A stretch of 36,132 bases of DNA from a virus, in IMG/VR virus record IMGVR_UViG_3300042691_041564, positions 1 to 36,132 of that record; one strand, 5' to 3'. The notes beneath the pieces were generated by a model. It did no database searches and was not told where the DNA came from. It worked only from the letters and a program-made list of their open reading frames with translations. This document shows, piece after piece, positions 3,236 through 35,779 of this stretch. Position numbers and translations under genes: made by a program. The stretch's first letter is position 1. Every line of letters begins with the position of its first letter.

Positions 3236-3432
3236 TGAAGCGCAAGGTGTGTCCGGCCAAAAAGGTGAAGCTGACGAAAGCGACCCCCGGTTCCGTGTGT
3301 CCCGGGTGGAACGACGACGCTTTGCGGCAATCGATTGAGGCACTGTGTTCACCGGAGGTGCGCGCGCTCATGCAACCAGACGTGGACAGGATGATTTTGA
3401 TGGGCGCGCTCGAGCCGGATTTCGTGTTGTGA
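3235..3432 (+). CDS. 65-aa protein between the two methyltransferases
   Basis: 65 aa, unrecognised. It is strongly basic at the N-terminus (MKRKVCPAKKVKLTK) and acidic and helical towards the C-terminus, with two cysteines in the first 22 residues. It begins with ATGA overlapping the stop of methyltransferase 1, and its own TGA overlaps the GTG start of methyltransferase 2. The three genes therefore form a tight, translationally coupled unit. That tight packing is the main reason to accept it as real. A small DNA-binding or accessory role is conceivable but cannot be shown. Confidence 0.75.
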   Translation: MKRKVCPAKKVKLTKATPGSVCPGWNDDALRQSIEALCSPEVRALMQPDVDRMILMGALEPDFVL

Positions 3433-9319: not shown

Positions 9320-9320
9320 G

Positions 9321-9536
9321 ATGGATCTGGAACGAATGCGCGCCCTGTTGGCCGCGCTGCAGGAGGCCCGTTATGCGGGCGTCCGGTCGGTCAGCTATGA
9401 CGGCAAATCGATCAACTATGGCTCGGACGCGGAACTCGCGAATGCCATCAGCGATCTGGAAACCCGGATCGCCACAGCCACGACCGGCACCCCGCGTCGT
9501 CGGCGCTGGGGCACGGTCGCCTCGAAAGGTCTGTGA
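9321..9536 (+). CDS. Head-tail joining protein, gpW-like
   Basis: 71 aa, matching the short gpW family. It has an N-terminal helix (LERMRALLAALQEARYAG), a beta hairpin (VRSVSYDGKSINYGS), a second helix (ANAISDLETRIATA) and a basic tail. In lambda, W seals the filled head and prepares it for tail addition. The position between terminase and portal is exactly the lambda order. GAGGGA precedes the ATG, and the portal gene begins three bases after the stop. Confidence 0.9.
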   Translation: MDLERMRALLAALQEARYAGVRSVSYDGKSINYGSDAELANAISDLETRIATATTGTPRRRRWGTVASKGL

Positions 9537-9539
9537 TCC

Positions 9540-11036
9540 ATGGCCTTCGAGGCTTTCCGTCAGCGGCTGGGGTCGATCATTGGCGGCTTCGATGCCGCAC
9601 AGGCCCACCGTCGCCTGCGCGGGTTCCGTGCATCCCGCGCCCATGTGAACACGCTGATCGCAGCCTCGGGCGACACCATCACCGCCCGCGCCCGCTGGCT
9701 GGTCCGGAACAATGGCTATGCGGCAAACGCAGTGGAAAGCTTCGCCACCAATGTCGTCGGCGATGGCATCAAACCCTCTTCGACCATCGCGGATGCGGCC
9801 AAGAAGGAAGAGCTGCAGGCGCTGTGGCTCGCCTGGACCGACGATGCAGATGCCGAGGGCCTGACCGATTTCTATGGGTTGCAGCGCCGCGCGGCGCGCG
9901 AAGTGTTCCTGTCAGGCGAGGTGTTCATTCGCATCAGGCCCCGTCGCGCGGAAGATGGCCTGACGGTCCCACTTCAGCTGCAGATGCTGCCTGCGGAAAT
10001 GCTGCCCTTGGATATGAACCGCACCTTGCCCGGTACCGGGCTGATCCGGCAGGGCATCGAGTTCGACGGCATCGGTCGCCGCGTTGCCTATCACTTCCTG
10101 CGCCGCCATCCGGGCGATCTGACCGACCCCGGCCTCGCGGGCGAAACCGTCCGTGTCCCCGCCACCGACGTGATCCACGTCCTTGATCCGGTCGAGGCAG
10201 GGCAGCTGCGCGGCGTGTCCCGCTTTGCTGCCGCCATCGTCAAGCTGTTCACGCTGGACCTCTATGACGATGCCGAACTGGAACGGAAGAAGATCGCGGC
10301 GATGTTCGCGATGTTCATCACCTCGCCCGCACCCGAAACGCCGCTGGAGCCGACCGAGGAGGATTTGGAGGTTGAACCCGGACAGGTGGTGCGGCTCGAT
10401 CCCGGTGAAGATGTGTCGACCCCGGCGACCCCGGACTCGGGCGGCACCTATGAGCCGTTCCAGTACCGCACGCTGCTGCAAATCGCCGCCGCGCTGGGCG
10501 TGCCCTATGGCTATCTGACCGGCGACACGGCGAAGGGCAACTTCTCGAACACACGGATCAGCTTGATCGAATTCCGCCGCCGTATCTCCGCCTGGCAGCA
10601 TGGCGTGCTGGTCTATCAGCTTTGTCGCGCGGTCTGGGTGCGCTGGATGGACACTGCCGTGTTGTCCGGTGCGCTGGACCTGCCCGGCTACGACAGCCAG
10701 CGGCGACAATATCAGGCCTGCGCCTGGCTTCCGACCAAATGGGACTGGATTGACCCGATGAAAGACGCCTCAGCCGAGATCCTGCAGATCGAAGCGGGCT
10801 TGAAATCCCGCACGCAAGCCTTGGCAGAGCGTGGGTACGACGCCGAACAGGTTGATCGGGAAATCGCCGCCGAGCGGAAACGCGAGGCGGCGCTGGGCCT
10901 TGATTTCCGCCGCCCGGGATCCCCGGCGCAGGGGCCGGGCGAAAGCGGCAAGACGGATGAAGATCCCAACGCAGAAAAGGACGACGAGGACGACGATACC
11001 GGCGATGAAAAACCGAGGCCCAAGGAGGGCGCATGA
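9540..11036 (+). CDS. Portal protein, lambda family (gpB-like)
   Basis: 498 aa. Typical lambda-portal features are the N-terminal RARWLVRNNGYAANAVESF segment, the crown region with YEPFQYRTLLQIAAALGVPY, and the following TGDTAKGNFSNTRISLIEFR, which is diagnostic of this family. It forms the dodecameric ring at one head vertex through which terminase packs DNA. The C-terminal 40 residues are a highly charged, disordered-looking tail (EDPNAEKDDEDDDTGDEKP). Its stop overlaps the next start by four bases (ATGA). Confidence 0.96.
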   Translation: MAFEAFRQRLGSIIGGFDAAQAHRRLRGFRASRAHVNTLIAASGDTITARARWLVRNNGYAANAVESFATNVVGDGIKPSSTIADAAKKEELQALWLAWTDDADAEGLTDFYGLQRRAAREVFLSGEVFIRIRPRRAEDGLTVPLQLQMLPAEMLPLDMNRTLPGTGLIRQGIEFDGIGRRVAYHFLRRHPGDLTDPGLAGETVRVPATDVIHVLDPVEAGQLRGVSRFAAAIVKLFTLDLYDDAELERKKIAAMFAMFITSPAPETPLEPTEEDLEVEPGQVVRLDPGEDVSTPATPDSGGTYEPFQYRTLLQIAAALGVPYGYLTGDTAKGNFSNTRISLIEFRRRISAWQHGVLVYQLCRAVWVRWMDTAVLSGALDLPGYDSQRRQYQACAWLPTKWDWIDPMKDASAEILQIEAGLKSRTQALAERGYDAEQVDREIAAERKREAALGLDFRRPGSPAQGPGESGKTDEDPNAEKDDEDDDTGDEKPRPKEGA

Positions 11037-12340
11037 TGCACCACGCCCAGATCGCCCAGCGCGCGTTCAACACACCGCTGATGGTAGACCCGGCCAAGGC
11101 GCTGGCCTTCCTGTCCGGGCTTGGGCCGCGCATCACCGGACAGGAGATCATCTTCCAAGGGCTGGAGGTCGACAGCGTTGATCAGGCAACAGCCGCCATT
11201 CACGCTCGCGCGTCTCTGTTCGGAAATGATCTGGCCCAGCGCCATCAGTGCAACGGAAGCCAGCCCTTCGCCATGATCGACGGCATCGCGGTGATCGAAA
11301 TCGCGGGCACACTTGTGCACCGTGGCGCGTGGATCGGGCAATCCTCGGGCCTGACCTCCTATGAGGGGATCGCCGCCCAGCTGCAGGCGGCGCTGGCCGA
11401 TCCCGGCGTTCGCGGCATTGCGCTCGACATAGACAGCTTCGGTGGTGAGGTCGCCGGGGCCTTCGATCTGGCGGATCGCATCCGTGCCGCCCGGGCGCAG
11501 AAACCGGTCCATGCCTTTGTCGCCGAACACGCCCTGTCGGCTGGCTATGTCCTCGCCTCCCAGGCCGACCGCGTCATCCTGCCCCGCACCGGCGCTGTCG
11601 GCAGCATCGGGGTCGTGGCGCTGCACACGGACATGAGCGGCGCGCTCGATCAGAAAGGGATCGCCGTCACGCTGATCCATGCCGGGGCCCACAAGGTCGA
11701 TGCGAACCCCTATCAGCCCCTGCCCGAAGCGGTGCACGACCAGATGCAGCGCGAGCTGGAGGTGGTCCGTTTCCTCTTCGCGGAAACCGTCGCCGCCGGT
11801 CGCGGGGATCGGCTGACCCAAGCGGCCGCGCTGGCGACCGAAGCTGCCGTGTTCCGCGGGGCCGACGCCATCGCGGCCGGTCTGGCTGACGAGCTTGCCG
11901 ATCCCGTCACCGCTTTTCACGCCTTCGCCGCCGCACCCCGCGGCACAATCTCCCCCAGCAGAAAGGGTCCGCAGATGACCACCACGCCTGAAAACCCCAT
12001 CGAAACGCCTGCACAGGTTGCGTCAAACCCGGCAGTACCGACCGTGGATGCCGTCACTTCGACCAACCCGTCCGCGATGACCGCCGAGGCCGTGCGCGCC
12101 GAGGCGGCCGAGGTGGCGCAGGTTTGCGCGCAGGCCGCGCGGCTCGGGGTGACCATCGACGCGGCTGATGCCGTCACCAAGGGTCTGAAGCCTGAAGTCT
12201 TGCGTGCCCGGATTCTGGCCGATCTCGCCGCCCGTAGCGATGCGGCAGGCATCATCGCCACCGCCCCGGCCGCAGCTGCCGCCAAAGACAGCCCGATCAT
12301 CGCTGCCGCCAAGAAGGCCGCGACCGACGCCAAGCGCTGA
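11033..12340 (+). CDS. Capsid maturation protease, S49/ClpP-like (gpC-like), with C-terminal scaffold
   Basis: 435 aa. The N-terminal 310 residues form an S49 (SppA-like) serine protease: LDIDSFGGEVAGAFDLAD (131-148) precedes the likely nucleophile Ser169 in EHALSAGYVLAS, and Lys221 in AGAHKVDANPY is the probable general base. In lambda the homologue C processes the prohead. The remaining ~120 residues are alanine-rich and helical, with no protease features, and correspond to the scaffold (Nu3) region, which also has an internal start at 11975. The start codon overlaps the portal stop. Confidence 0.94.
   Translation: MMHHAQIAQRAFNTPLMVDPAKALAFLSGLGPRITGQEIIFQGLEVDSVDQATAAIHARASLFGNDLAQRHQCNGSQPFAMIDGIAVIEIAGTLVHRGAWIGQSSGLTSYEGIAAQLQAALADPGVRGIALDIDSFGGEVAGAFDLADRIRAARAQKPVHAFVAEHALSAGYVLASQADRVILPRTGAVGSIGVVALHTDMSGALDQKGIAVTLIHAGAHKVDANPYQPLPEAVHDQMQRELEVVRFLFAETVAAGRGDRLTQAAALATEAAVFRGADAIAAGLADELADPVTAFHAFAAAPRGTISPSRKGPQMTTTPENPIETPAQVASNPAVPTVDAVTSTNPSAMTAEAVRAEAAEVAQVCAQAARLGVTIDAADAVTKGLKPEVLRARILADLAARSDAAGIIATAPAAAAAKDSPIIAAAKKAATDAKR
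11975..12340 (+). CDS. Nested capsid scaffold protein (Nu3-like) from internal start
   Basis: 121 aa, in frame with and inside the 3' end of the protease gene. The ATG is preceded by AAAGG eight bases upstream. The encoded segment (MTTTPENPIETPAQVAS...) begins exactly where protease similarity ends. It is low-complexity and helical (AEAVRAEAAEVAQVCAQAARLG), as expected for an internal scaffold. In lambda, Nu3 is made the same way from within C. Expression from this start is inferred from context and ribosome binding site, not proven. Confidence 0.7.
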   Translation: MTTTPENPIETPAQVASNPAVPTVDAVTSTNPSAMTAEAVRAEAAEVAQVCAQAARLGVTIDAADAVTKGLKPEVLRARILADLAARSDAAGIIATAPAAAAAKDSPIIAAAKKAATDAKR

Positions 12341-12795: not shown

Positions 12796-13818
12796 ATGAC
12801 CATCGTTCGCAATCCCTTTGATGCTGGCGGTTACTCGCTGGCCGAGATGACGCAGGCCATCAACATCCTGCCCAACCTTTACACCCGCCTCGGCCAGATC
12901 GGCCTGTTCCGCTTCGAGGGCGTCACCCAACGTTCGGTGATCATCGAGCAATATGAGGGTGTCCTGAACCTGCTGCCCTCGGTTCCACTGGGTGGCCCCT
13001 CTACCGTCGGCACCCGCGAAGGGCGCTCGATGCGGTCCTTCGCTCTGCCGTGGATCCCGCACGACGATGTCATCTTGCCTGGCGACATTCAGGGCCAGCC
13101 CGCGCTGGGCGCTTTTGATGCGGCCGATCCTTTGGTCGAGGTGATGAACCGCAAGCTGCAGCTGATGCGCCGAAAGCATGCCCAGACCCGCGAATACATG
13201 GAGATGAACGCGCTGCGCGGGATCGTGAAGGACGGCGCTGGCACCACCCTCTACAACTACTTCACCGAATTTGGCCTCGCGCAAATCTCGGTGGACTTCC
13301 TGCTGGGCACGGCAGGCACCCTCGTTCAAAGCAAGGTCCGCGAGGTTTTGCGGGCAATCGAGGACAACCTTCTCGGCGAAAGCATGTCGGACGTGCACGC
13401 CCTCGTCAGCCGCGAATTCTTCGACAAGCTGATCGCGCATCCCAAGACCGAGGAAGCCTACAAGTTCTATGCCGCGACCGGCGCGCAGCCCTTGCGCCAG
13501 GATGTGCGCCGCAACTTCCCCTTCGCTGGCATCGTGTTCGAAGAATACGCGGGCACGGTCACGCTTTCCACCAAGGCGACCGAACGGCTGGTCCCGGCGA
13601 ACGAAGGCATCGCCTTCCCCTTGGGCACGATGGACACCTTCACCACTTATGGCGGCCCGGCGAACTTGCTGGAGGCGGCGAATACCCTCGGCCTGCCGCT
13701 CTACGCCCGCCAGCACCTCGACGAGAAGGGTCGCTGGATCGACCTGATGACGGAAGCCTCGATCTTGCCGGTGAATAAGCGGCCGCGCATCGCGATCCGC
13801 ATCCACACCTCGAACTGA
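12796..13818 (+). CDS. Major capsid protein, lambda gpE family
   Basis: 340 aa, the standard length of the gpE family. Typical landmarks are the N-terminal NPFDAGGYSLAEMTQAIN, IPHDDVILPGDIQG, and the C-terminal segment with TYGGPANLLEAANTLGLPLYA and ITVNKRP-like INKRPRIAIRI-type ending (VNKRPRIAIRIH). It adopts the HK97 fold and builds the icosahedral shell. There is no N-terminal propeptide of HK97 type, in keeping with a separate scaffold. GGAG precedes the ATG. Confidence 0.95.
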   Translation: MTIVRNPFDAGGYSLAEMTQAINILPNLYTRLGQIGLFRFEGVTQRSVIIEQYEGVLNLLPSVPLGGPSTVGTREGRSMRSFALPWIPHDDVILPGDIQGQPALGAFDAADPLVEVMNRKLQLMRRKHAQTREYMEMNALRGIVKDGAGTTLYNYFTEFGLAQISVDFLLGTAGTLVQSKVREVLRAIEDNLLGESMSDVHALVSREFFDKLIAHPKTEEAYKFYAATGAQPLRQDVRRNFPFAGIVFEEYAGTVTLSTKATERLVPANEGIAFPLGTMDTFTTYGGPANLLEAANTLGLPLYARQHLDEKGRWIDLMTEASILPVNKRPRIAIRIHTSN

Positions 13819-17875: not shown

Positions 17876-18105
17876 ACCGACCCCAAACGCCGGAAAGCTG
17901 GCAGGTTTGGGATCTGGTCGGCCGCCTTGGCGGGCAACTCCGCGTGATCCCCGGCGCGGTCCTCGGTTGGGACATGGGCGCTGCCCTCGCCCTCGCACAG
18001 GCGCTGGGCATCGACACCATGATCGCCGCCGAGCTGCTGCCCGAGATCGAGGCGGTCATGGTGCGCAAGCTGAACGAACAGATGGAAGGAGGCCGCGATG
18101 GCTGA
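17438..18105 (+). CDS. Tail assembly chaperone, -1 frameshift form (gpGT-like)
   Basis: Predicted 222-aa fusion made by slipping back one base at 17776-17782 and continuing in the frame that ends at 18105 (115 residues before, 107 after). The extension contains RALADWSFGGGNRYCAACQ and VACPDCPARL, a four-cysteine set that may bind zinc, and then a helical part (WDMGAALALAQALGIDTMIA, LPEIEAVMVRKLNEQMEGG). The extension frame has no good start codon of its own near the junction, and its amino-acid content is protein-like, which favours frameshifting. In siphoviruses the long form bridges tail tube and tape measure subunits during assembly. It overlaps the tape measure start by eight bases. Confidence 0.78.
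17776..17815 (+). promoter_or_regulatory. Programmed -1 frameshift signal
   Basis: The heptamer A AAA AAC occupies 17776-17782, in phase as X XXY YYZ with the codons GAA AAA AAC. Thirteen bases later CGCCGA (17796-17801) can pair with TCGGCG (17810-17815) around an 8-base loop, a candidate stimulatory hairpin. The -1 frame is open from here to 18105, while the zero frame ends at 17875. This is the layout of tail-chaperone frameshift sites. Confidence 0.8.
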
Positions 18106-20524
18106 AAAAAGGGTCAGCGTCCGCCTCGTCGCGGAGGGCGGCCGCCAGGTGCGTGCGGAGCTGGAAGGCATCGGTAATGCGGGCGCGCGGAGTTTTGGTC
18201 GCCTCTCGACCGAGATGGAACTGGCCAACACTCGGCTGGCCAGCTTCGCCCGCAAGGCAGGGATTGCCCTGGCCGCAGTGACGGTTGCCGCCGCCGCCGC
18301 TGGCGTAGCCATGGTCCGATCCGGATTGGAAACCATCGGCGCGCAAGCCGACATGGCCGCTTCGCTAAAAACCACAGTCGAAAGCCTACAGGTGCTGACT
18401 TGGGCTGGAGAACTGGCCGGGGTTTCCATGGGCGAGATCGAACAGGCAACCAAGAAGTTGACCACCCGGTTGTCAGAAGCGGCAACAGGAACAGGATCGG
18501 CGGTCGGGGCCTTGAAGCGGTTGAACCTGACCGCCGCCGAACTGCAGTCCCTGCCACTCGACCAGCGCATCGTCGCCATTCAGGAAGCGTTGAACCGGTT
18601 TGTGCCGGAAGCCGAACGGGCTGCTGTCGCTTCTGACCTTTTCGGCGACAAGGCGGCACTGGCATTTCTGCGCATCGATCCCGCGACCTTGCGCGAAGCG
18701 GCGCAGGATGTGCGGGATTTCGGCGTGGCGGTCAGCGCGGCCGACGCCGCTCAGATCGAGCGCACCGGCGACGCCATCGCCAAACTCAGCCTGATCTGGC
18801 TGGGGCTGACCAACCGGCTGACGGCGGCCGTGGCTCCAGCGCTGGAAACCATCGCCAATACGCTGGCCGATATGGCGCGCAGCACTGGCCCGATTGGCAT
18901 CGCGATCAACGCCCTTTTCGACAATATTGGTCGCCTGACCACCTATGCGGCCACTTTCGCCACGCTGATGGCCGGGCGCTGGGTGGCGGGGCTGGCGGCG
19001 GCAGCGCTGTCCGTACGCGGGCTCGCCACCGGTCTCGTCATTCTGCGCGGCGCATTGATCCGGACCGGCATCGGTGCGCTGATCGTCGGCGCTGGCGAGT
19101 TGGTGTTCCAGTTCACCCGGCTCGTCGCAGGTGCAGGAGGGTTTGGCGCGGCGATTGGCCTTCTGAAGGACCTGGCGCTCGAGGTCTGGGACCGCATCGG
19201 CCTTGGCGCGGCCTCGGCCTGGTCGAAGATTGAGGCCAGCTGGGCCGGGCTGCAGGCCACGATCTACAGCGCGATGCAGTCATCGGCGGAGGCGGTGACC
19301 AGCTTTGCCAATTCGGCGGCTGGCATCTTCAAGGGGGCCTATGATGCGGTGAAGGCGATCTGGGGCCAGCTGCCGAGTGCCATCGGCGATTTCGCCTTCC
19401 AGGCCGCCAACGGTCTTATCGGCGGGGTGGAAGCCATGCTGAATGGCGTCGTCACCCGCATCAACAACTTCATCAACGGCTTGAACGCAGCTCTCGACCT
19501 CTTGCCCGATTGGGCCGTGGGAGAAGGTGGCGCGCGGATCGGCACGCTCGATCCAGTCGCGCTGGGCCGGATCGACAATCCCTTCGCAGGATCAGCCGCT
19601 GCGGCCGGAGCCGCTGCGGCCGAAGCCTTCTCGGCGGCGATGGCGCAGACCTACGTCACCACACCCGATCTTGGCCTTACGGGGATGGCGGAGGATGCCA
19701 CCGCCCGGGCCGAAGCCTATCGCGAGGCTTCTGGCATGCTGGCCGATGCCGCCACCCGTCCGATGCAAAGCTGGCAAGCGCTGAAGGATGCCGTTGCCGG
19801 GGCGGGCAGCGAGGGCGAATCCGCACTGGACGGGGCCGTAGACGCTGCCGACCGGCTGGACGAGTCGATGACCGAGGCCGGGCGCGCCGCCGGTGGCGCC
19901 GGTGCCGCTGCTGCGGCCGGAGCCGAAGTGGCCAAGACCGGATGGGAGGCGGCCGTGGCCACGCTCGCCGATTATGCTGCCAAGGCCCGCGACATCGGCG
20001 GCGATATCGGCAATGCACTGGTCAGCGCCTTCACCTCGGCGGAGAATGCCGTGGGCGAGTTTGTAAAAACCGGCAAGCTGGACTTCCGCGACCTGGTCAC
20101 ATCGATGATTGCCGATCTCGCGAAACTGGCGGCGCGGCGCTTCATTCTCGGCCCCATCGCCAACGCGCTATCGGGCGCGCTGAGCGGTGCGGGTGGCATC
20201 TTTGCCAACATTCTGCATGCGGGAGGCATGGTCGGATCACCAGGACCCGGTCGTATGGTCCCGGCCACGGCATTCGCCAGTGCCCCGCGCATGCACGCAG
20301 GCGGTTGGGCCGGAATCAAGCCTGACGAAGTGCCTGCAATTCTGCAGCGGGGCGAGCGGGTTCTGTCACGCCGCGAGGCGGCTGGATATGGCCAAGGGCA
20401 AGGCGCGGCCCCGAACGTCTCAGTCACCATCATGGCCCGTGACGCCGAAAGCTTCCGGCAATCCCGCACGCAAGTCGCGGCCGATATCGCCCGCGCGGTG
20501 TCCCTTGGCCGGAGGGGCATGTGA
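18098..20524 (+). CDS. Tail tape measure protein
   Basis: 808 aa. Long alpha-helical regions alternate with hydrophobic stretches (about 270-345, ATFATLMAGRWVAGLAAAALS and similar). The end carries FRDLVTSMIADLAKLAARRF, GPIANALSGALSGAGG and ILHAGGMVGSPGPGRMVPATAF, the classic C-terminal signature of lambda-family tape measures. The protein sets tail length and takes part in DNA ejection across the envelope. At 808 aa a tail of roughly 120 nm would be expected from the usual 1.5 Angstrom per residue rule. Start overlaps the chaperone extension. Confidence 0.95.
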   Translation: MAEKRVSVRLVAEGGRQVRAELEGIGNAGARSFGRLSTEMELANTRLASFARKAGIALAAVTVAAAAAGVAMVRSGLETIGAQADMAASLKTTVESLQVLTWAGELAGVSMGEIEQATKKLTTRLSEAATGTGSAVGALKRLNLTAAELQSLPLDQRIVAIQEALNRFVPEAERAAVASDLFGDKAALAFLRIDPATLREAAQDVRDFGVAVSAADAAQIERTGDAIAKLSLIWLGLTNRLTAAVAPALETIANTLADMARSTGPIGIAINALFDNIGRLTTYAATFATLMAGRWVAGLAAAALSVRGLATGLVILRGALIRTGIGALIVGAGELVFQFTRLVAGAGGFGAAIGLLKDLALEVWDRIGLGAASAWSKIEASWAGLQATIYSAMQSSAEAVTSFANSAAGIFKGAYDAVKAIWGQLPSAIGDFAFQAANGLIGGVEAMLNGVVTRINNFINGLNAALDLLPDWAVGEGGARIGTLDPVALGRIDNPFAGSAAAAGAAAAEAFSAAMAQTYVTTPDLGLTGMAEDATARAEAYREASGMLADAATRPMQSWQALKDAVAGAGSEGESALDGAVDAADRLDESMTEAGRAAGGAGAAAAAGAEVAKTGWEAAVATLADYAAKARDIGGDIGNALVSAFTSAENAVGEFVKTGKLDFRDLVTSMIADLAKLAARRFILGPIANALSGALSGAGGIFANILHAGGMVGSPGPGRMVPATAFASAPRMHAGGWAGIKPDEVPAILQRGERVLSRREAAGYGQGQGAAPNVSVTIMARDAESFRQSRTQVAADIARAVSLGRRGM

Positions 20525-22472: not shown

Positions 22473-25400
22473 ATGGCAACTTTGGTTCTCGGCGCCGTCG
22501 GCTCCGCGATTGGCGGCGCATTTGGCGGCGCCATCCTCGGCTTTTCCGGCGCGGCGATCGGCGGTTTCATCGGCTCGACCATCGGGTCGGTCGTCGACAA
22601 CTGGATCGTGTCGTCCCTCGCCCCGGCCCAACGGATCGAGGGCGCGCGGCTGGACAGCTTGCGCATCACCTCCTCGACCGAAGGCGCTGTGATCCCGCGC
22701 CTGTTCGGTCGCATGCGCATCGGCGGCAACATCATCTGGGCCACGGATTTCCGCGAGGAGGTCAACACAACCAGCCAGGGCGGTGGCAAGGGCAGCGGGC
22801 CAAAGGTCACGACGACCGAGTATCTCTACTTTGCGTCCTTCGCCATAGCGCTGTGCGAGGGCGAGATCACCGGCATCGGCCGCGTCTGGGCCGACGGCAA
22901 AGCCATGGACATGACCGGCGTGACCTGGCGCTGGTATCCGGGTGACGAGGTTCAGTCCCCCGATCCCTTCATCGCTGCAAAAATGGGTGCCGCCAACACC
23001 CCCGGCTATCGCGGCACCGCCTATGTCGTGTTCGAGGAACTGAACCTCAGCGCTTTCGGCAACCGCCTGCCGCAGATCAGCTTTGAGGTGTTCCGGCCGC
23101 TCGCGGATCCCGACACTGCCGAAGGGCTGGTCAAGGCGGTGACGATGATCCCGGCCTCGGGCGAGTTCACCTATGCGACCGCCCCGGTCAAAAAATCCAC
23201 CGGCTCCGGCGGTGCAACTGTGGCCGAGAACCTTAACGCGATCACCGACACCGCCGACATCGTGGTGGCGCTGGACCGGCTGCAGTCCCTCGCTCCGGCG
23301 GTGGAAAGCGTCAGCCTGGTGGTTGCCTGGTTCGGCGATGATCTGCGCACCGGGAACTGCAAGGTGCGTCCTGGCGTCGAGGTGGCGGCCAAGACCACCA
23401 CGCCTTCGGCTTGGGTCGTGAACGGCGTTGCACGCGCCGATGCGTTTCTGGTCAGCCGCGATGTCGAGGACCGTCCCGTTTATGGTGGCACGCCTGCTGA
23501 CTTCGCAGTGGTGCAGGCGATCCAGGAGATGAAGGCACGCGGTTTGCGCGTGACCTTCTATCCCTTCTTGCTCATGGATGTGCCGCCCGGGAACACCAAG
23601 CCCAATCCCTACAGCGCCAATGCTGCCACCGCTGGCCAGCCCTCATTCCCCTGGCGCGGCCGGATCACCTGTTCCCCAGCCGCAGGTTTTGCAGGATCGG
23701 TGGATAAAACCGCCACTGCCGCCACGCAAGTATCGGCGCTGTTCGGAACGGCGACGCCCGCCAACTTCAGCGTGTCAGGCACCACTGTCAGCTGGACTGG
23801 TCCTTTCGGCGAATGGTCCCTTCGCCGGATGATCCTGCACTACGCGCATCTGTGCAAAGCGGCCGGGGGCGTCGATGCCTTCCTGATCGGGTCGGAAATG
23901 CCCGGTCTGACCACGATCCGTTCGGGTGCCAGCACCTATCCTGCCGTCACCGCCTTCAAATCCCTTGCTGCCGATGTGCGTTCCATCCTCGGCGCTGGAC
24001 CCAAGGTCGGCTATGCCGCCGACTGGTCGGAATACTTCGGTCACCACCCTGCCGACGGTAGCAGCGATGTGTTCTTTCACCTCGACCCACTCTGGTCTGA
24101 CGCCAACATCAATTTCATCGGCATCGACAACTACATGCCGCTGTCCGATTTGCGCGACGGGTTCGATCATGCCGATGCCGCGCTGGCGCCTGCAATCTAT
24201 GACCGGACCTACCTGCAATCGAACATCACTGGCGGCGAAGGCTTCGATTGGTTCTATGCCAGCGCCCTTGATCGAACCGCGCAGAACCGTACCCCGATCA
24301 CCGATGGTGCTGTCGCCAAGCCATGGGTCTTTCGCTTCAAGGATCTGCGCGCCTGGTGGCAAAACCCGCACTTCAACCGCCCGGGCGGCGTCGAGAGCGG
24401 CACGCAGACGGCATGGGTGCCGCAGTCCAAGCCGATCTGGTTTACGGAGCTGGGGTGCCCGGCGATTGACCGCGGCACCAATCAGCCGAACGTGTTCTTC
24501 GACCCGAAATCGTCGGAAAGCTTCACGCCCTATTTTTCGCGCGGCTGGCGAGATGATGCGATCCAGCGCGCCTATCTGGAGGCGACCTATCTGTTCTGGG
24601 ATGCCGCGGCGAACAATCCGACGTCATCTGTCTATGGGGCGCGCATGGTGCATGTCCCCGAATGCGCGGCTTGGACCTGGGATGCCCGGCCCTATCCGTT
24701 CTTCCCCGAGCTGACCGATGTCTGGACCGATGGGCCGAACTGGCGGTTGGGGCATTGGCTGACCGGGCGGCTGGGCGCAGTATCGCTGGCGGCACTGGTG
24801 CGCCACCTTTGCCTGCGCGCGGGAATGCCCGAGGAACTCATCGACGTGACAGGCCTCTGGGGCGCGGTCGAGGGTTATGTGATCTCCGCTCTGGAAGCCC
24901 CGCGTGCGTCCATTTCCACGCTGGCGCGGCATTTTGGCTTCGATGCCGTGGAAAGCGAGGGGCGGATCAAGTTCCTGATGCGGGGCCGGATCGCCAGCGC
25001 CACGGTGACGCCCGACAGCATGGTGGCCCCCGCCTCTGCGCAGGGCGATGTGATGGAACTGACCCGGGCGCAGGAAACCGAACTGCCGCAAGCGCTGAAG
25101 TGGCAAGTCGCCCGCGCCGACGAGGATTACGACGCGGCACAGGTCGAAGCGCGCCGGATCACCGTCGACACCACCCGCATCGCGTCCGAGTCCTTCCCGA
25201 TGGCAATTCCGCCAGAGGAGGCCGAACGCCGCTGTCGTCGCGCGCTGATGGAAGCTTGGGTGGGTCGGGAAAGTGCCGTCTTCCGTTTGCCGCCCTCGCG
25301 TCTGGCGCTGGATCCCTGCGATGTGATCCTCTTGGACCACGATGGCCGCCTGACGGAAATGCGGCTCGTGTCCATCGCTGACTCCGACCTGCGCAGCGTC

Positions 25401-26444
25401 GATGCGGTGCGCCAGGATCGCGCGGTTTATGACTTGCCACCCGGCGAACCGCGCCCTGCGTCCTTGTCCACGCCGACCGTGTTTGGCGCGCCGGATGTGC
25501 TGCTGCTGGACCTGCCACAGTTGCGCGAAGATCAGCCTGCGCATCGGCCCATGGTCGCGGCGCAGGCCAAACCATGGCCCGGCGAGATTGCCGTCTACCG
25601 CAGCGCCGCAACGGATGGCTTTGCGCTGCTGACGACCTTTGGCACCCGGGCACGCATGGGTGTGCTGGCGGCGGACTTCTTTGCCGGGCCGGTCTCGCGC
25701 TTTGATCTGGGCAATGCGCTGGTCGCCGATCTCTATTCCGGCACCTTGGAAAGCGTCACGGACCTAACGCTGCTGGGCGGAGCCAATGCGCTGGCAGTCG
25801 AAACCGGCGCTGGGCAATGGGAAATCGTCCAGGCGGGCGCGGCCGAGTTGATCGCGCCCGGCCGCTATCGGCTCACCCGATTGCTGCGCGGCCAGCGTGG
25901 GACCGAAGGTGCGATGGTCAGCATGGTGCCGAGCGGCGCACGCGTCGTGGTTCTCGACACTGCCGTGGCCTCCTTGCCGATCTCCGAAGTCGATCTGGGT
26001 CTGCCTTGGAACTGGCGGATCGGTCCTGCATCAAAACCAGCCAGCGACGAGACCTTTGTCGCAACCAGCTTCACCCCGGAAGGCGCTGGGCTGCGGCCGT
26101 TTTCGGTGGCCCATGTCGAACAGCCTTGGCGCACTGCCCGCAGCCCCGGCGACCTCACGATCCACTGGACGCGCCGGTCGCGGTCATTGGCCGCTGATAC
26201 GTGGGGCGCTGGCGACGTGCCCTTGGCCGAGGACAGTGAGGCCTATCAGGTCGACATTCTGGATGGGTCAGTTGTCAAGCGATCCTTGACGACTGCCACA
26301 ACCAGCGCCCTCTACACCGCCGCCCAGCAGACCACCGATTGGGGGGCGCCTCTCGGACCTGGCCAATCCCTCGCCATCCGCATCTACCAGCTCTCCGCCC
26401 TGATCGGCCGGGGTGCTGGGCGATCCGTCACCCTCAGTTTCTGA
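22473..26444 (+). CDS. Tail tip host-specificity 'megatron' with GTA TIM-barrel domain
   Basis: 1323 aa. A glycine-rich hydrophobic N-terminus (AIGGAFGGAILGFSGAAIGG, about 8-40) is followed by VIPRLFGRMRIGGNIIWATD and TEYLYFASFAIALCEGEITG, as in phage tail tip proteins. The centre (about 440-720) is the GTA TIM-barrel-like domain: LHYAHLCKAAGGVDAFLIGS, GYAADWSEYFGHHP, FIGIDNYMPLSDLRDG and PIWFTELGCPAIDRG. A Phage-tail_3-like region follows (about 760-930). It forms the central tip that contacts the receptor and pierces the outer membrane. The TIM barrel looks glycosidase-derived, and acidic residues in DWSEYFG and FTELGCP sit where catalytic acids would be. Confidence 0.96.
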   Translation: MATLVLGAVGSAIGGAFGGAILGFSGAAIGGFIGSTIGSVVDNWIVSSLAPAQRIEGARLDSLRITSSTEGAVIPRLFGRMRIGGNIIWATDFREEVNTTSQGGGKGSGPKVTTTEYLYFASFAIALCEGEITGIGRVWADGKAMDMTGVTWRWYPGDEVQSPDPFIAAKMGAANTPGYRGTAYVVFEELNLSAFGNRLPQISFEVFRPLADPDTAEGLVKAVTMIPASGEFTYATAPVKKSTGSGGATVAENLNAITDTADIVVALDRLQSLAPAVESVSLVVAWFGDDLRTGNCKVRPGVEVAAKTTTPSAWVVNGVARADAFLVSRDVEDRPVYGGTPADFAVVQAIQEMKARGLRVTFYPFLLMDVPPGNTKPNPYSANAATAGQPSFPWRGRITCSPAAGFAGSVDKTATAATQVSALFGTATPANFSVSGTTVSWTGPFGEWSLRRMILHYAHLCKAAGGVDAFLIGSEMPGLTTIRSGASTYPAVTAFKSLAADVRSILGAGPKVGYAADWSEYFGHHPADGSSDVFFHLDPLWSDANINFIGIDNYMPLSDLRDGFDHADAALAPAIYDRTYLQSNITGGEGFDWFYASALDRTAQNRTPITDGAVAKPWVFRFKDLRAWWQNPHFNRPGGVESGTQTAWVPQSKPIWFTELGCPAIDRGTNQPNVFFDPKSSESFTPYFSRGWRDDAIQRAYLEATYLFWDAAANNPTSSVYGARMVHVPECAAWTWDARPYPFFPELTDVWTDGPNWRLGHWLTGRLGAVSLAALVRHLCLRAGMPEELIDVTGLWGAVEGYVISALEAPRASISTLARHFGFDAVESEGRIKFLMRGRIASATVTPDSMVAPASAQGDVMELTRAQETELPQALKWQVARADEDYDAAQVEARRITVDTTRIASESFPMAIPPEEAERRCRRALMEAWVGRESAVFRLPPSRLALDPCDVILLDHDGRLTEMRLVSIADSDLRSVDAVRQDRAVYDLPPGEPRPASLSTPTVFGAPDVLLLDLPQLREDQPAHRPMVAAQAKPWPGEIAVYRSAATDGFALLTTFGTRARMGVLAADFFAGPVSRFDLGNALVADLYSGTLESVTDLTLLGGANALAVETGAGQWEIVQAGAAELIAPGRYRLTRLLRGQRGTEGAMVSMVPSGARVVVLDTAVASLPISEVDLGLPWNWRIGPASKPASDETFVATSFTPEGAGLRPFSVAHVEQPWRTARSPGDLTIHWTRRSRSLAADTWGAGDVPLAEDSEAYQVDILDGSVVKRSLTTATTSALYTAAQQTTDWGAPLGPGQSLAIRIYQLSALIGRGAGRSVTLSF

Positions 26445-29627: not shown

Positions 29628-29763
29628 GGGACACTCGCCCCTCCGGCTTGAGTGAGGCACCGAAATCGCTGCCCACGTTGGAAACACCATACCAGCGGTA
29701 CGTCTTGCCACTTGGTCTTTTTCGACGTATATTCCGCCAAACTTCATGTCGAAGGGCGATACG
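29628..29763 (+). promoter_or_regulatory. Promoter of the accessory two-gene unit
   Basis: TTGCCA at 29705-29710 and TATATT at 29728-29733 are separated by exactly 17 bases, a strong sigma70-type promoter. Transcription would start near 29740. The Shine-Dalgarno AAGGG (29752-29756) with a 7-base gap then points to the GTG at 29764. The rest of the interval has no gene. Confidence 0.7.
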
Positions 29764-30483
29764 GTGAGTGAAGCAGATATTTTGAATGTCCTGCAACGAG
29801 ATCTTCCAGAGCCCTTCCTGGTCTCGCTGCAGGATGGTCTTCGTGGCGAGTACTCAAAGGCTTACGATGACGTAGCTAGCCCACCGGGTGGTTTCGTTGT
29901 TCCTCGTCCAAGTTCGGAATGGGATAAAGTCGATCTGCGCGTCGTGCGTAGCGCGCGTAGGAGCAACGGGATGCGTGCTCTGATGCGCGCGTGTGGAGAG
30001 CATGGCGCTCCGTTTCAGGTCAAGACACTGGCCTGCAACGGTCAAGCCATCGTGGTTGGGCAGGTTGGCCAGCTGTTGATCATAACCGAGCCGATTGACA
30101 GCCTTTTGTCTCGCCCTGATCAGGCCGCATACAAAGCTGATCTTGCGGCTTCGCATTTCTCGATCCGGCAACTTGAGATGGACCTTGGGGATGGCTGGAG
30201 ACAACGTATTGACGCTCGGAACACCATCCTAGTCGTCGTTCAACATGGGATGCGGATAGGCGGCTTCAACCGTCGTGACACCGCGCTCGAGATGATGCGG
30301 GTTGTCGTCCCCGATGCTTCATTCGGCTCATGGCTGATCAAGGCGAACGTGATGAACGGTGAGCTGGGCGCCATGCTCGACTGGTCGACGTTCGACAAAA
30401 CAAAGACGGCGCGCCCGACACAGGAAGATCGCGTTGTTGTGACGCTCAAGAAAAACTTGGGAGAGAGAGCCTTTGAACAATGA
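29764..30483 (+). CDS. Unknown 239-aa partner of the XRE-ImmA/IrrE protein
   Basis: 239 aa from a GTG at 29764 (SEADILNVLQRDLPEPFLVS). An ATG at 29746 would lie only about six bases from the predicted transcript start and has no ribosome binding site. I recognise no domain. The protein is mixed alpha/beta with a central SNGMRALMRACGEHGAPFQV and a hydrophobic QAIVVGQVGQLLIITEPI. The C-terminal third includes NGELGAMLDWSTFDKTKT. Its ATGA overlap with the next gene makes a coupled pair, so it is a candidate substrate, toxin or regulator of the metallopeptidase. The lower GC of the pair relative to the virion genes suggests separate acquisition. Confidence 0.8.
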   Translation: MSEADILNVLQRDLPEPFLVSLQDGLRGEYSKAYDDVASPPGGFVVPRPSSEWDKVDLRVVRSARRSNGMRALMRACGEHGAPFQVKTLACNGQAIVVGQVGQLLIITEPIDSLLSRPDQAAYKADLAASHFSIRQLEMDLGDGWRQRIDARNTILVVVQHGMRIGGFNRRDTALEMMRVVVPDASFGSWLIKANVMNGELGAMLDWSTFDKTKTARPTQEDRVVVTLKKNLGERAFEQ

Positions 30484-31628
30484 AACGCGTAGAAGGATTC
30501 ATCTGCGGGCGCCTGACACAAGCTCGTGAAGCTCGGGGGCTTACCAAGACTGCGTTGAGCGGCATGCTGGATATTTCGTCCAATGCCTTGTCTGCACTTG
30601 AGGCGGGCGAATCCCTTCCGCGGCAAGACACGTTCGATGCTATTGTTGAGAAAACTGCATTCCCGAGGCAGTTCTTCATGCGGCCCTTGCCGCCGCCCAT
30701 GAGCGGTCCGGTTTTCTGGCGGCGGCAGGCATCTGAGCCGCTGCGGTCGCAAAACAAAACTGCACAAAGGATCGAATGGGCAGCAGAAGCCTTCGATATC
30801 TTGTCAGAGTTTGTTGACTTCCCAAAGCTCAAGCTTCCGCATCAGGATGATTGGCCGACGAATTGGGCCGCCGTATCGAATGAACGGATTGAGGACTTTG
30901 CTGATTACTGCCGCAGCGTTTGGGGGATCGGATCCTATCCGATCCCAGACATGTGTTTGGCTCTGGAAAACATCGGCATCCCAGTACTCGCTTTCGAGAT
31001 CGAGAACGAAAAGCAATCGGGGTATTCGCGATGGGCAGACCACATTGCTCGACCAATCGTCGGCGTGAACACCCTCGAGTCATCCGCTGTCCGGATGCGG
31101 TTCAATCTTGCGCATGAACTTTATCATGTGCTCGCGCATTTCGGCACGGTTGCAGAAAAGGAAGTACGCCACGCGCAAACATACCAGGCGATTGAGAAGC
31201 AAGCGCACAGGTTCGCGGCCGCGCTTCTTTTTCCGCGTGACGCATTTCTGAAAAATGTGCGTTACCCCTCACTTGAGGAGTTTGCTTCACATAAGCAGGA
31301 GTGGGGAATTTCGATCCTCGCTCAAATCAGGCGGGCACAGGATTTGGGAGTATGTGACCCGGAATGGGCCCGTGCTTTGAATATGCGCGCGTCAAAGAAT
31401 GGTTACCGCGGGAAGCGAGGCGAACCATTTGACAAGGAAATGCCGCTAGAAAGGCCCCGCATGCTGCGCCGGGCTGTTGAAGCGATTGAATCCGGAAGTG
31501 AGTTGTTGCTGGAACAAGCCCGGCAGCGACTGTCGCTGCCACGCATCGGAGAAATTGAGATTTTCGGGCGGCCCTTGGCTGCATCGGGCTCAAACGTGGT
31601 GCAGCTGAAGCCAGTGGAAATCAACTGA
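30480..31628 (+). CDS. XRE helix-turn-helix plus ImmA/IrrE metallopeptidase
   Basis: 382 aa. Residues about 8-60 form an XRE-type helix-turn-helix (RLTQAREARGLTKTALSGML, then SSNALSALEAGESLP). The peptidase domain has the zinc motif HELYH (212-216) in RFNLAHELYHVLAHF and the downstream glutamate E239 in AIEKQAHRFAAALLFP, the usual third ligand. In mobile elements such as ICEBs1, ImmA cleaves the partner repressor to switch the element on; other fused versions act in toxin-antitoxin or stress circuits. Here the DNA-binding and protease parts are in one chain, and the coupled upstream gene is the likeliest target. The C-terminal 70 residues are variable, helical and arginine-rich. Confidence 0.92.
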   Translation: MKRVEGFICGRLTQAREARGLTKTALSGMLDISSNALSALEAGESLPRQDTFDAIVEKTAFPRQFFMRPLPPPMSGPVFWRRQASEPLRSQNKTAQRIEWAAEAFDILSEFVDFPKLKLPHQDDWPTNWAAVSNERIEDFADYCRSVWGIGSYPIPDMCLALENIGIPVLAFEIENEKQSGYSRWADHIARPIVGVNTLESSAVRMRFNLAHELYHVLAHFGTVAEKEVRHAQTYQAIEKQAHRFAAALLFPRDAFLKNVRYPSLEEFASHKQEWGISILAQIRRAQDLGVCDPEWARALNMRASKNGYRGKRGEPFDKEMPLERPRMLRRAVEAIESGSELLLEQARQRLSLPRIGEIEIFGRPLAASGSNVVQLKPVEIN

Positions 31629-31697: not shown

Positions 31698-33014
31698 TCA
31701 CTGAAGTTCCAAAGCTGCCTTGTCGATTCCAGCAAGAATTCGGTTCAAGATGCGGTCCACAAGGTCGGCACCGGTGGAGATGTCGAAGCTCGCCGTTTCC
31801 AGCAGTGTTTCCTGACCCGTCACCCGGAACCGCGCGCGGATCCCTTCCTCGTCGCCCAGGCCCGCATGGTGGGGATAAAGCAGCGTCAGCCGCGGGGCCT
31901 TGTAGAGGTGGGCATAGGCCATCATCTGATAGATATCCGCTTGGGACACCCCCTGCTTCGGATCGTCTACTCGGGCGGAAATCCGCTTCCATTTGGTGTC
32001 GATCACATGGACAACCTGATCGGCCCGTTTGATCAGGATATCGGGCTTGGTCTGGAATACCGCACGATCCTCATCGAGCGACGTCAGGCAGAATAGTCGG
32101 CCGCCCTGCAGGGTCACGCGGAACTCGGACCCCGCCAGCGCCCGCGTCACCAGACGGCCGATGTACTCCTCGAACAGGGCATTCATCTCGAACAGCAGTG
32201 CCGATCCCTGCCCCGACCCGGCGCTGGTGGTCTGGTATCGGTTGCGCAGAAACAGTTGCGCCATTCCAAAGAGTTCCTGCCACGCGCTGTTCGTGCGGTC
32301 GATGACAACATCGTCCCACCGCAGGGCCGGGCGCTGCACCTCCGCGACCTCGGCATAAACGAAGGCCAGTTCCCGCAGCCGCTGGACATTCGTAGCGTTG
32401 CGCGACATGCCCGCCAGATGCGTGATAGTCGCCTTCATGATGCGGTTGAGGGCGATATCCTCGGACAACTCGTCATACCGGCAGGCCAGACGGCCCGGGT
32501 TTGCGATGTGACGGGTGAACTGGCGCGGGATATCCAGCGATCCACGCAACGTCGGCAGGTCGTCGTCGTGGAGGGTGTAGCGCCGCGGCATGCCTCGCCG
32601 AACCGCCTCTGTCAGCTTGTCGCAAAAGATGCGGATCAGGATTTCCAGCAGCGTTTCGCGCTGCCAGTCGAGGTCGGTCATGCGCCCGGTCTCGACCTTG
32701 AGATTGAGGGCCACTGCGAGCATGTGCACAAGGCGCTTGCGGATCTCGCGCGTCTCTTGGGCCGAGCCTTCCTTCTCGCCGACGTCGATCTTCGGCAGGA
32801 TTTCCAGCGTGCAGCCCGGCACCGCCAGAACGCCAACCACCCCGCGCGCCCGCAGGTCATGGCGCCGATCCTCGAGAACGCCACCGCCGCCACGCCCGGC
32901 GAAAGGAGATGCCTTGGCCAGAGTCACAAGGCGCTGGGCAAGATGCGGGGGAATGCATCCCTCCCCATCGCCATGGGGCACGGACTCCCATTCGCGCACG
33001 GAGTAGGCGGGCAT
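31698..33014 (-). CDS. mcrC: McrC, nuclease subunit of McrBC type IV restriction
   Basis: 438 aa. The N-terminal part has GVVGVLAVPGCTLEILPKID (58-77), the McrC beta domain. The C-terminal nuclease has KPDILI (D325) and HVIDTKWKR (D339, K341), the PD-(D/E)xK active site, preceded by the conserved ALLFEMNALFEEYIGRL (272-288). McrC binds the McrB hexamer, stimulates its nucleotide hydrolysis, and cuts DNA that carries modified cytosines. It overlaps the mcrB stop (ATGA), so the subunits are translated in a coupled way. It ends 70 bases from the ImmA/IrrE gene, which is convergent. Confidence 0.95.
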   Translation of the reverse strand: MPAYSVREWESVPHGDGEGCIPPHLAQRLVTLAKASPFAGRGGGGVLEDRRHDLRARGVVGVLAVPGCTLEILPKIDVGEKEGSAQETREIRKRLVHMLAVALNLKVETGRMTDLDWQRETLLEILIRIFCDKLTEAVRRGMPRRYTLHDDDLPTLRGSLDIPRQFTRHIANPGRLACRYDELSEDIALNRIMKATITHLAGMSRNATNVQRLRELAFVYAEVAEVQRPALRWDDVVIDRTNSAWQELFGMAQLFLRNRYQTTSAGSGQGSALLFEMNALFEEYIGRLVTRALAGSEFRVTLQGGRLFCLTSLDEDRAVFQTKPDILIKRADQVVHVIDTKWKRISARVDDPKQGVSQADIYQMMAYAHLYKAPRLTLLYPHHAGLGDEEGIRARFRVTGQETLLETASFDISTGADLVDRILNRILAGIDKAALELQ

Positions 33015-35779
33015 CAGGCCGCGAACTCGGAGAAGTCGAACTGGTCCTTCACCCGCCAGCGCAGTCTCTCGCCGCTGAAATCATCCGCGGCAATTCCCGG
33101 CGGCGCAGTCAGGCGGCGCGCCTCCAGAAACCGGGATGGGCCCTGCGGGCCATCGCCCAGAACGGCAGCGACCTTCGACCAATCCTCGTAGAAATACTCG
33201 GACAGGAGCGGAATGACCTTGTGCCGCATCACTCCCTCGACGGCCTCTCGCGTTTTGCAGCCGGTGAAATAGGCGTGCCCAATCTGGTGTTCGCGGTCGA
33301 ACAGATACTCAATGCGGTCGTTGATCGTGGTCAGCAGCTTCTGGAGATTTATCCCGCCGACATTCAGGGACAGGACAGAGGGTTTCGGCATCAGCTCCTT
33401 GAAGGTGAACCGACGGCGCAAGGCCGTGTCCAGCAGCGCAATCGAGCGGTCGGCCGTGTTCATGGTGCCGATGATGTGCAGATTGGGCGGCACCCCGAAG
33501 CGCTTCTTCGAATAGGGCAAGGTCAGCTGGATCCCGTCACGTCGCCAAAGGCGCTTGTCCGGCTCGAGGAGCGTGATCAGTTCGCCGAACACCTTCGAGA
33601 TATTGGCCCGGTTGATCTCGTCGATGATCAACACATAGTCACGCGCCGTATTGTCTGCCACCGCAGCGCGCTTGCCGAAGACGATCTCTTCCAGCGCGTC
33701 CCAATCGATGAGGGACTGGTTGAGCTTGTAGACAGAATGCCGCCTGAACGCGTTAGGGTAAAATCTGTTGCGATCGGTCCCGGCTTCGTCGCGCCAAATC
33801 CAATCGACGGTTCTTCGGTGGGGATGAAATTCCGCGCCCTCGTCGAAGTAATAATCGCCCTTGATCCTGCCAAATGCCTGGATGCGGTCACGTCCGTCAG
33901 ACACCACAACGTAGTCACCAATCTGCATGTCCGATCTGAACGAGTAGGTGACGACGATGTTGCCGTCATGGCCTGTCGCGTCTGAGTCTTTGCGAGACCG
34001 CCACTCGTTGTAAATCTGGTCGAAATCATCGAACCGTTCGTCGGACCAATCGATGTCCCCGCCCCAGCCCACATGGATCAATCCGTTCTCCAGACCGAAG
34101 CGTATCCTGTGCTCTTCCACTTGGCGGCGCCCGAGTGCCACTTTGAACACGCGCGCGGTCCTGTCGAGACGTGAGACGGCCCCTGCCTGCGAACTGTCGA
34201 GGCGCGCGCGTTCGCTCATCTTCTTGAACACCCCGTCGGTCGGTTTCAGACGGAAGCCCACAGCAGCGCCGAGCTCTTCCGGCCCCTCTCTGGCATCTTC
34301 GCCCGTACTTGGCTGAAGCCCTTCAACGAATTCCTCATATGACATGGACTGGTGGAAGGTGACGAACTCGATCCGCTCTTCCTTCATCAGGCTTTGGTAC
34401 TCGGCCATCAGCTGGTCACGGTTCTCTTCGCCGGAGAGATCAGCAGCAACAGCGTCGCCCAAGCAGAGACGAACCGCCTCCCACGCCGTCTGGTAAGTCT
34501 TGCCGGTGCCGGGGGGGCCGTAGAGGATCAGGTTGGTCGTCTCGATCTGTAGGGCATGCGACATGGACGGGTTCTTCGCCTTTCCGTCCTGCGTCAGGAC
34601 AAAGGTATACTCGGTAGTGGTGCTGCGCTCCGGCCCGGATCGCGTGGGCGCCGGGACCGAAGCAAGCTTCTGGAAAGCCTCCTTCTCCAACGCCTGGCAG
34701 ACATTCGCCCAGTTTTTCACAAGGCCTGACATGTCGTGCAGGTCACCGGCGCGGATGGTTACCGAATGAAGTCCGGCTTCCCGTGCGGGAGCGATGAAGT
34801 AGTTGAGAGCCACGAGACGGGCGCGTTCCGCCCCGCGCATCAGATGTGTGTGCTGGTCGGGTAGCGGCAACGGCGTGTCATGCTGGTCGACGATGACGTA
34901 ACCCGCCGCATGCAGTCTTGCGGCCGCGTCGCCCGGTTGGCTCCACCCGCCATTGAATGTGTTCGACGCCTTGCCCAAGAGGTAACCGACAATTGGCTTC
35001 GTCGGGAAGCGCTTGTCCTGCCGCGGGCGGCTGGACCGCACCCAAAAATCCTTCGGCTCGCCGAAACTCGAGAACGCATCGGCATGTGCACCTGACCTGC
35101 GGAACTCTTCGTAGGCGTCCATCGCACCCTCGATCCGGTCGCGAGTGAAGGCGTCATCCTTGTCAGTGGCCCCCTTGCGAATGACCTGGAACCCGAGTGC
35201 CTCAAGTTTGGCGAACGATTGCGCCTCTCCGAAGCCGTTGAAGAATTCCTTCGCTGCGAGAGCGCGGCAATCGGGAAGATTCCCCAAGGCTGCTGCGACG
35301 GTGGCCTTCGCGGGATAGGGCTGATCCTTGCCTTCATCGCTGACCCAGACCTGTGGGCTGGCAAAGCCACCACGGGCAAGAAACGCCTTCAAGCCCAACT
35401 GGTCGCATTCCTGCATTGCCGCCTCGACTTCCTCGCGGCTGAGGCGGTCGACCAATGCCTGGTGTTCTGCCGTGTCGGGCACATTGGACTGTTCGGTCAG
35501 GAAGGAATGGTACAGCTTCAGGGCCTGCTGGAGGCTGGCAAGACCCGTGCGCAAGACACCGTCGATGGGAACAGGCGAGGGATTGGGGCGTTCTGCCCGT
35601 TCATCCTCGGCGGTGTAGGCAAATCGGTTCAGGACGCTGTCCCGATCCTCTTGCGCGAACAGCTCGTCCAGATCGCCGAGGTACTGTTCAACGCGTTTGG
35701 CACTACTCACGCGAGAGGAAGCGGTCGCATCCGTCTGCCCCTGCGCCATCAGCCAATTCCGGAAGTCGTCCTGCTTCAT
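33014..35779 (-). CDS. mcrB: McrB, AAA+ motor and specificity subunit with multidomain N-terminus
   Basis: 921 aa from the ATG at 35779; the frame runs on to 35947 without start signals. The AAA+ core has Walker A GPPGTGKT (421-428), TFHQSMSYEEFVEGLQP (474-490), Walker B LIIDEINRANISKVFGE (717-733) and the McrB signature GTMNTADRS (771-779) with DTALRRRF. About 543-690 interrupts this core with a PUA/EVE-like module (IHVGWGGDIDW, MQIGDYVVVSDGRDRIQAFG), a fold known to read modified bases. Upstream, two similar segments (about 130-200 and 225-298: WVSDEGKDQPYPAKATVAAA and WVRSSRPRQDKRFPTKPIVG, each ending in a hydrophobic LEALGFQVI/LHAAGYVIV) resemble the head domain of ScoMcrA-type enzymes. 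A fourth segment (HSVTIRAGDLHDMSGLVKN) precedes the AAA+ part. Confidence 0.95.
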   Translation of the reverse strand: MKQDDFRNWLMAQGQTDATASSRVSSAKRVEQYLGDLDELFAQEDRDSVLNRFAYTAEDERAERPNPSPVPIDGVLRTGLASLQQALKLYHSFLTEQSNVPDTAEHQALVDRLSREEVEAAMQECDQLGLKAFLARGGFASPQVWVSDEGKDQPYPAKATVAAALGNLPDCRALAAKEFFNGFGEAQSFAKLEALGFQVIRKGATDKDDAFTRDRIEGAMDAYEEFRRSGAHADAFSSFGEPKDFWVRSSRPRQDKRFPTKPIVGYLLGKASNTFNGGWSQPGDAAARLHAAGYVIVDQHDTPLPLPDQHTHLMRGAERARLVALNYFIAPAREAGLHSVTIRAGDLHDMSGLVKNWANVCQALEKEAFQKLASVPAPTRSGPERSTTTEYTFVLTQDGKAKNPSMSHALQIETTNLILYGPPGTGKTYQTAWEAVRLCLGDAVAADLSGEENRDQLMAEYQSLMKEERIEFVTFHQSMSYEEFVEGLQPSTGEDAREGPEELGAAVGFRLKPTDGVFKKMSERARLDSSQAGAVSRLDRTARVFKVALGRRQVEEHRIRFGLENGLIHVGWGGDIDWSDERFDDFDQIYNEWRSRKDSDATGHDGNIVVTYSFRSDMQIGDYVVVSDGRDRIQAFGRIKGDYYFDEGAEFHPHRRTVDWIWRDEAGTDRNRFYPNAFRRHSVYKLNQSLIDWDALEEIVFGKRAAVADNTARDYVLIIDEINRANISKVFGELITLLEPDKRLWRRDGIQLTLPYSKKRFGVPPNLHIIGTMNTADRSIALLDTALRRRFTFKELMPKPSVLSLNVGGINLQKLLTTINDRIEYLFDREHQIGHAYFTGCKTREAVEGVMRHKVIPLLSEYFYEDWSKVAAVLGDGPQGPSRFLEARRLTAPPGIAADDFSGERLRWRVKDQFDFSEFAA

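Follow-up and report, generated by a model that had tools for sequence, protein, structure and literature searches.

A McrBC gene pair lies on the minus strand at the right end of IMGVR_UViG_3300042691_041564, a 36,132-base IMG/VR virus record with siphophage gene order, which we analyzed whole and call the window. The open reading frame at 33014-35779 reads as an intact McrB, with mcrC next to it, and the motifs of both place them in the McrBC family. The two genes overlap by a single base, which ends the stop codon of mcrB and begins mcrC. Ahead of its motor this McrB carries two head-like modules in tandem and a predicted winged-helix-like segment, and inside the motor a further domain is inserted. 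In close relatives recombination has exchanged the segment and the insert, each without the other and without the motor.

Motor and nuclease motifs are intact. In phmmer searches McrB matches McrB structures at 8e-57 to 4e-28, with Thermococcus gammatolerans McrB as the best PDB sequence match (8e-57) and Escherichia coli McrB at 5e-29. The AAA+ core has GPPGTGKT (residues 421-428), FHQS, LIIDEINR and the GTPase signature MNTADRS, of the NxxD form. McrC matches PF10117 at 1.8e-74 over residues 54-381 and the NCBIfam McrC model at 6.6e-35, and its nuclease motif reads KPDI ... VIDTKWK.

An insert of 196 residues splits the AAA+ core between the helix-2 region and Walker B. Walker A and Walker B are 295 residues apart in the window protein versus 104 in L055, a relative with 14 residues at the insert point. 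Such relatives, designated here by L numbers, were gathered by peptide-pattern scans and one family-level genome search, and frequencies among them are no census. An AlphaFold model of the insert, with a predicted local distance difference test score (pLDDT) of 86.7, has 35 Foldseek matches in the PDB at E<1e-3. The best are YTH domains (E down to 3.5e-5, probability 1.00, template modelling (TM) scores of 0.4-0.6), and the EVE-like proteins MJECL36 and PH1033 are also among the matches. As modelled, the insert is a YTH/EVE-type domain, for which YTH-like is the better label. Of the Pfam, PADLOC and NCBIfam models, PADLOC PDC-S02 alone gave a usable match to it (3e-10); a PDB profile search with the insert alignment returned no significant match. 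In an alignment of 34 inserts, identity to the window's copy is 24-57%, with one near-identical copy at 95%, and D58, R96, G110, Y124, R137, V139, W141 and Y165 (insert numbering) are invariant. The residue after D58 is W or F, or L in a few; it and W141 were considered as putative parts of an aromatic pocket for the modified base.

The insert is a removable module, because L055 keeps the core frame with only its 14 residues there. The slot also takes other contents. An unrelated module of about 80 residues occupies the insert point in L019, L020, L022, L032 and L054, and in L045 and L046 a YTH-like insert and the ~80-residue module stand in tandem in the same slot, the latter behind. Pfam, PADLOC and PDB searches, including a PDB profile search, gave no match for the ~80-residue module, and NCBIfam gave no usable name for it. 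A YTH-like insert sits at the same place in proteins encoded by plasmids of Klebsiella, Sphingobium, Sphingomonas and Croceicoccus, as it does in most related McrBs collected here, and the arrangement is common in this McrB lineage.

The N-terminal part is a string of further modules. Residues 1-108 have counterparts elsewhere in the family's genomes, some as short proteins standing alone and some fused; they also match BrxB weakly (E 5e-4). Behind them, modules A and B are two diverged copies of one ScoMcrA-head-like module. Their local (Smith-Waterman) alignment scores 61 versus 24.8 +/- 4.5 for shuffled sequences (0 of 2000 shuffles reach 61), and hhalign joins their profiles at 97.4% (E 1e-11). 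The AlphaFold model of the N-terminal 412 residues (pLDDT 81, predicted TM score (pTM) 0.62) has the same helix-strand order in both copies. We reached the head family through a consensus peptide, which retrieved PDB 5zmm at 3.8e-17; the actual test used natural sequences only. In it, the copy-A profile found the ScoMcrA head (5zmm residues 7-91) at E 2.5e-5, with the first decoy at E 3.5, as well as the heads of a Rhodococcus HNH endonuclease (5e-12) and an E. coli plasmid DUF3883 protein (1e-10). Copy B joins the family by profile-profile comparison only (83%). Residues 311-396 are predicted to be winged-helix-like. Pfam, PADLOC and NCBIfam scans gave no usable name for any N-terminal module, and a PDB profile search with the N-terminal alignment gave no significant match. 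Head number varies: none was detected in L024, L027 and L042, one in L025, L023 and L037, and three in L026.

A first-pass annotation of this DNA had proposed both the tandem of ScoMcrA-head-like modules and an EVE-superfamily domain splitting the AAA+ core, and both proposals hold. Its module limits, 130-298 and 543-690, were slightly off; we measure 110-300 for the two heads and 520-715 for the insert, with a fold core at about 544-702. The repeat test rejects a single unrelated domain at 130-298. An ordinary AAA+ linker at 543-690 is likewise ruled out, as the insert forms a separate fold and L055 lacks it.

Recombination has exchanged the modules. Blocks of high and low DNA identity to the window follow one another along mcrB. 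L010, for instance, matches the window's DNA at 80-97% over residues 1-450, drops to 35-57% over residues 476-725 and returns to 81-99% over residues 726-921. L008 and L009 have the window's insert at 87-100%, yet fall to 44-53% over residues 351-400, while L012 diverges in head module B (51-73%) and L005 in head module A (59-68%). At the protein level, the other insert classes share 19-34% identity with the window's insert, and the winged-helix segment (residues ~330-400) falls into two allele classes with 34-41% identity between them; the Walker-B-side block of close relatives stays at 80-96%. In 54 pairs, Walker-B-side identity is at least 92% yet insert identity is at most 40%. The nuclease gene changes little, with 79-97% DNA identity between carriers of different inserts, except in the last ~40 codons.

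The two variable modules also move separately from each other. At a 50% cut-off there are 2 winged-helix classes and 6 insert classes in 10 combinations, and 4 insert classes occur with both winged-helix classes. Approximately unbiased (AU) tests reject trees that force one module to follow the other (p 0.0023 and 6e-14). Segment and insert have thus recombined independently within a near-constant motor. Tabrizicola aquatica has two mcrBC copies (L007 and L008) about 46 kb apart, with the same insert class and different winged-helix classes. In L015 (Aquimixticola soesokkakensis; 8277-10528), roughly 2.2 kb of other DNA splits mcrB after residue about 751, a natural disruption.

Table 1. Features of the mcrBC locus and its surroundings, in window coordinates unless another record is named.
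Feature	Position	Strand	Remarks
mcrB, 921 amino acids plus stop	33014..35779 (codons 33017-35779)	-	open frame; AAA_5 2.5e-15
Helical N-terminal module, residues 1-108	35456..35779	-	all-helical in AlphaFold model
Head module A (ScoMcrA-head-like), residues 110-203	35171..35452	-	ScoMcrA head profile match; repeat of B
Head module B, diverged copy, residues 206-300	34880..35164	-	repeat of A
Winged-helix-like segment (predicted), residues 311-396	34592..34849	-	predicted H-E-H-H-H-E-E
AAA+ core, first part	34223..34519	-	Walker A GPPGTGKT 421-428, FHQS motif, helix-2 region
Insert, 196 residues, residues 520-715	33635..34222	-	between helix-2 region (GVFKKMSERA) and Walker B
Predicted YTH/EVE-like fold core of insert, residues about 544-702	33674-34150	-	
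AAA+ core, second part	33017..33634	-	Walker B LIIDEINR, MNTADRS signature, arginine-finger region
mcrC	31698..33014 (codons 31701-33014)	-	DUF2357 + PD-(D/E)xK nuclease
~80-residue module, example	L019:2085-2318	+	GFS..QYREAL..G.E.TGGWE.HNMP.W
ParB-domain + N6/N4 DNA methyltransferase gene pair	1940-3232 and 3345-4751	+	adjacent, related (phrog_498)
Terminase	7271-9316		
Portal	9540-11033		
Head protease	11033-12337		
Major head protein	12796-13815		
Tape measure	18098-20521		
Tail protein	22473-26441		
RosmerTA-like toxin-antitoxin pair	29746-31628	+	RmrA 7e-86, RmrT weak 1e-5

Related prophages carry cargo at this mcrBC position again and again, because homologues of the same window tail genes (25.4-28.75 kb) adjoin mcrBC in seven relatives (L002/L013, L003/L007, L005, L006, L010, L012 and L022; L002 and L013 are one sequence, as are L004 and L011). 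These carriers are mostly Paracoccaceae/Rhodobacteraceae. Between the tail and lysis genes and mcrBC is a pair resembling RosmerTA (RmrT/RmrA); with mcrBC it makes up a small cluster of defence cargo at the end of the prophage. The ParB-methyltransferase gene pair also occurs in three other mcrBC virus records longer than 50 kb, at 81-92% identity. A phage that methylates its own DNA and carries a possibly modification-dependent nuclease must avoid self-attack.

The locus probably encodes an McrBC restriction complex, carried by a prophage, whose target-recognition part is composite and can be exchanged. Insert and winged-helix-like segment are the best reader candidates, because both vary and both have reader-type folds, the insert's from its model and the segment's by prediction; they would be the main target readers. 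The YTH-like insert may recognise a modified base, and the segment could add sequence context or a second mark. The nearest precedent is the YTH domain of T. gammatolerans McrB, which reads N6-methyladenine (m6A) in DNA according to the account of Hosford 2020 given in PMC7680126. The head modules would help to bind DNA or serve in positioning, and their number can change. In established McrBC structures, McrC enters the pore of GTP-bound McrB hexamers and the readers stand outside the ring (PMC7680126); here too, GTP-bound hexamers would assemble with McrC, the ring's readers would engage invading DNA and McrC would cut it. Recombination of the readers could then shift the target of the prophage's superinfection defence and leave motor and nuclease constant.

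More tentatively, and with rather more doubt than belief on our part, the protein may be a combinatorial platform. Its winged-helix slot and in-motor slot would each draw, one independently of the other, on a stock of readers (YTH-like classes, the ~80-residue module, or both in tandem), and prophages would re-target their superinfection defence by recombination; as a speculation, the inserted reader could couple recognition directly to GTP hydrolysis. The idea of a composite specificity, already raised in the first-pass annotation, gains support from the independent exchange of two modules, and the swap pattern fits a changed specificity at least as well as the broadened one suggested there. 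Its count of up to three modified-base readers was too high: only the insert has a reader-type fold, and the heads cannot be counted because the ScoMcrA head has no known function, the readers of that enzyme being its SBD and SRA domains (PMC6224610). Its claim of rarity also went too far, since McrB GTPase domains frequently bear inserts according to Bell et al. 2024 (PMC11090510), an McrB relative with tandem EVE domains is known (PMC10602043), and the insert is present in most related McrBs here.

Several points weigh against exchangeable target recognition. The relatives are few and sampled by peptide patterns, with 19 in the block analysis, and the heads belong to a family without known function. 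The N-terminal model has no PDB match below E 0.001 in Foldseek, a negative limited by its pTM of 0.62 and by the partial disorder of the ScoMcrA head in the crystal (PMC6224610), and "winged helix" therefore follows from predicted secondary structure. The insert reaches its YTH matches at only the TM scores given above, with about 10% sequence identity, and Pfam reaches 0 of 34 inserts at E<=0.05. Diversification could, moreover, reflect escape from phage inhibitors and not a change of specificity. One form of that idea makes insert and segment surface modules that contact McrC, the DNA backbone or defence proteins and vary because phage inhibitors target them. Fast change fits an arms race, and the insert follows the helix-2 region, whose inserts in solved McrBC ring the tip of the McrC finger (PMC7680126). 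A matched McrC contact is unlikely, however, given an McrC that is nearly constant across insert types outside its last codons, and the insert's modelled fold comes from a superfamily of nucleic-acid readers; we consider this account improbable.

A site-specific enzyme like LlaJI, cutting unmodified sites while the phage's two ParB-methyltransferases shield the carrier DNA, is also unlikely. McrBC relatives that come with methyltransferases and act on unmodified sites are known (PMC12707154), and the window and the three longer virus records do encode N6/N4 methyltransferases. In the window, however, about 27 kb separate these genes from mcrBC, which is on the opposite strand, and the insert is of YTH type and not the B3 domain of LlaJI. 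Specificity also seems not to track the methyltransferases: the inserts of L002 and L004 share just 31-33% identity with that of the window, yet their ParB-methyltransferase genes are 81-87% identical, and the persistence of similar methyltransferases beside a different insert argues against methylase-matched specificity. Modified RNA as the target, proposed for CoCoNuTs with YTH-like domains, would suit the fact that most of the matched YTH structures bind m6A RNA, and a case for RNA targeting by a related branch is made in PMC11090510. It is very improbable here: the GTPase signature is NxxD (MNTADRS) where CoCoNuTs have NxD, no coiled-coil or HEPN family was found, and McrC keeps its PD-(D/E)xK motif. 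The same signature, with no coiled-coil or HEPN family found, rules out a CoCoNuT identity for the system.

Little is known about how McrBC enzymes change their targets, and the exchange seen here offers a way in. Relatives whose motor and nuclease stay nearly constant while insert or winged-helix segment is exchanged are a ready-made, natural domain-swap series. Such a series could show which module reads what and whether a reader within the core couples to GTP hydrolysis.

The architecture itself is not new in kind. EVE/YTH-McrB fusions are common (PMC7641849), and inserts in GTPase domains, "likely encoding specificity domains", are reported as frequent in the main text of the Bell et al. 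census, whose McrB GTPases thus resemble the window's. That main text is silent on the fold of the window's insert, its replacement, tandem stacking and independent exchange with a second module. In the literature searched, supplements excepted, we found no account of independent two-module exchange, tandem stacking in the insertion slot or a natural insert-less form. The T. gammatolerans McrBC (6UT5) shares an AAA+ GTPase McrB with a YTH fold, the NxxD signature and an McrC partner; unlike the window's, its YTH domain is N-terminal, whereas here the fold sits between the helix-2 region and Walker B and the N-terminus holds other modules. PcdA, a Staphylococcus aureus McrB relative, likewise joins multiple reader-type domains to an McrB AAA+, but these are two EVE domains, both N-terminal, its AAA+ is degenerate and its role is in cell division (PMC10602043). 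ScoMcrA shares the head family with module A and, more distantly, module B; it has, however, one head, is an HNH enzyme and reads through SBD and SRA (PMC6224610).

Type I restriction enzymes offer a parallel to the exchange. In their HsdS subunit, too, two recognition modules recombine independently within a conserved frame. Unlike Type I, the window system has no methyltransferase subunit, and its modules lie in and before the GTPase motor, not in a separate specificity subunit. The pattern, by analogy, resembles the shuffling of HsdS target domains in a Type IV-like enzyme, and a combinatorial platform, if true, would be the Type IV counterpart of HsdS shuffling.

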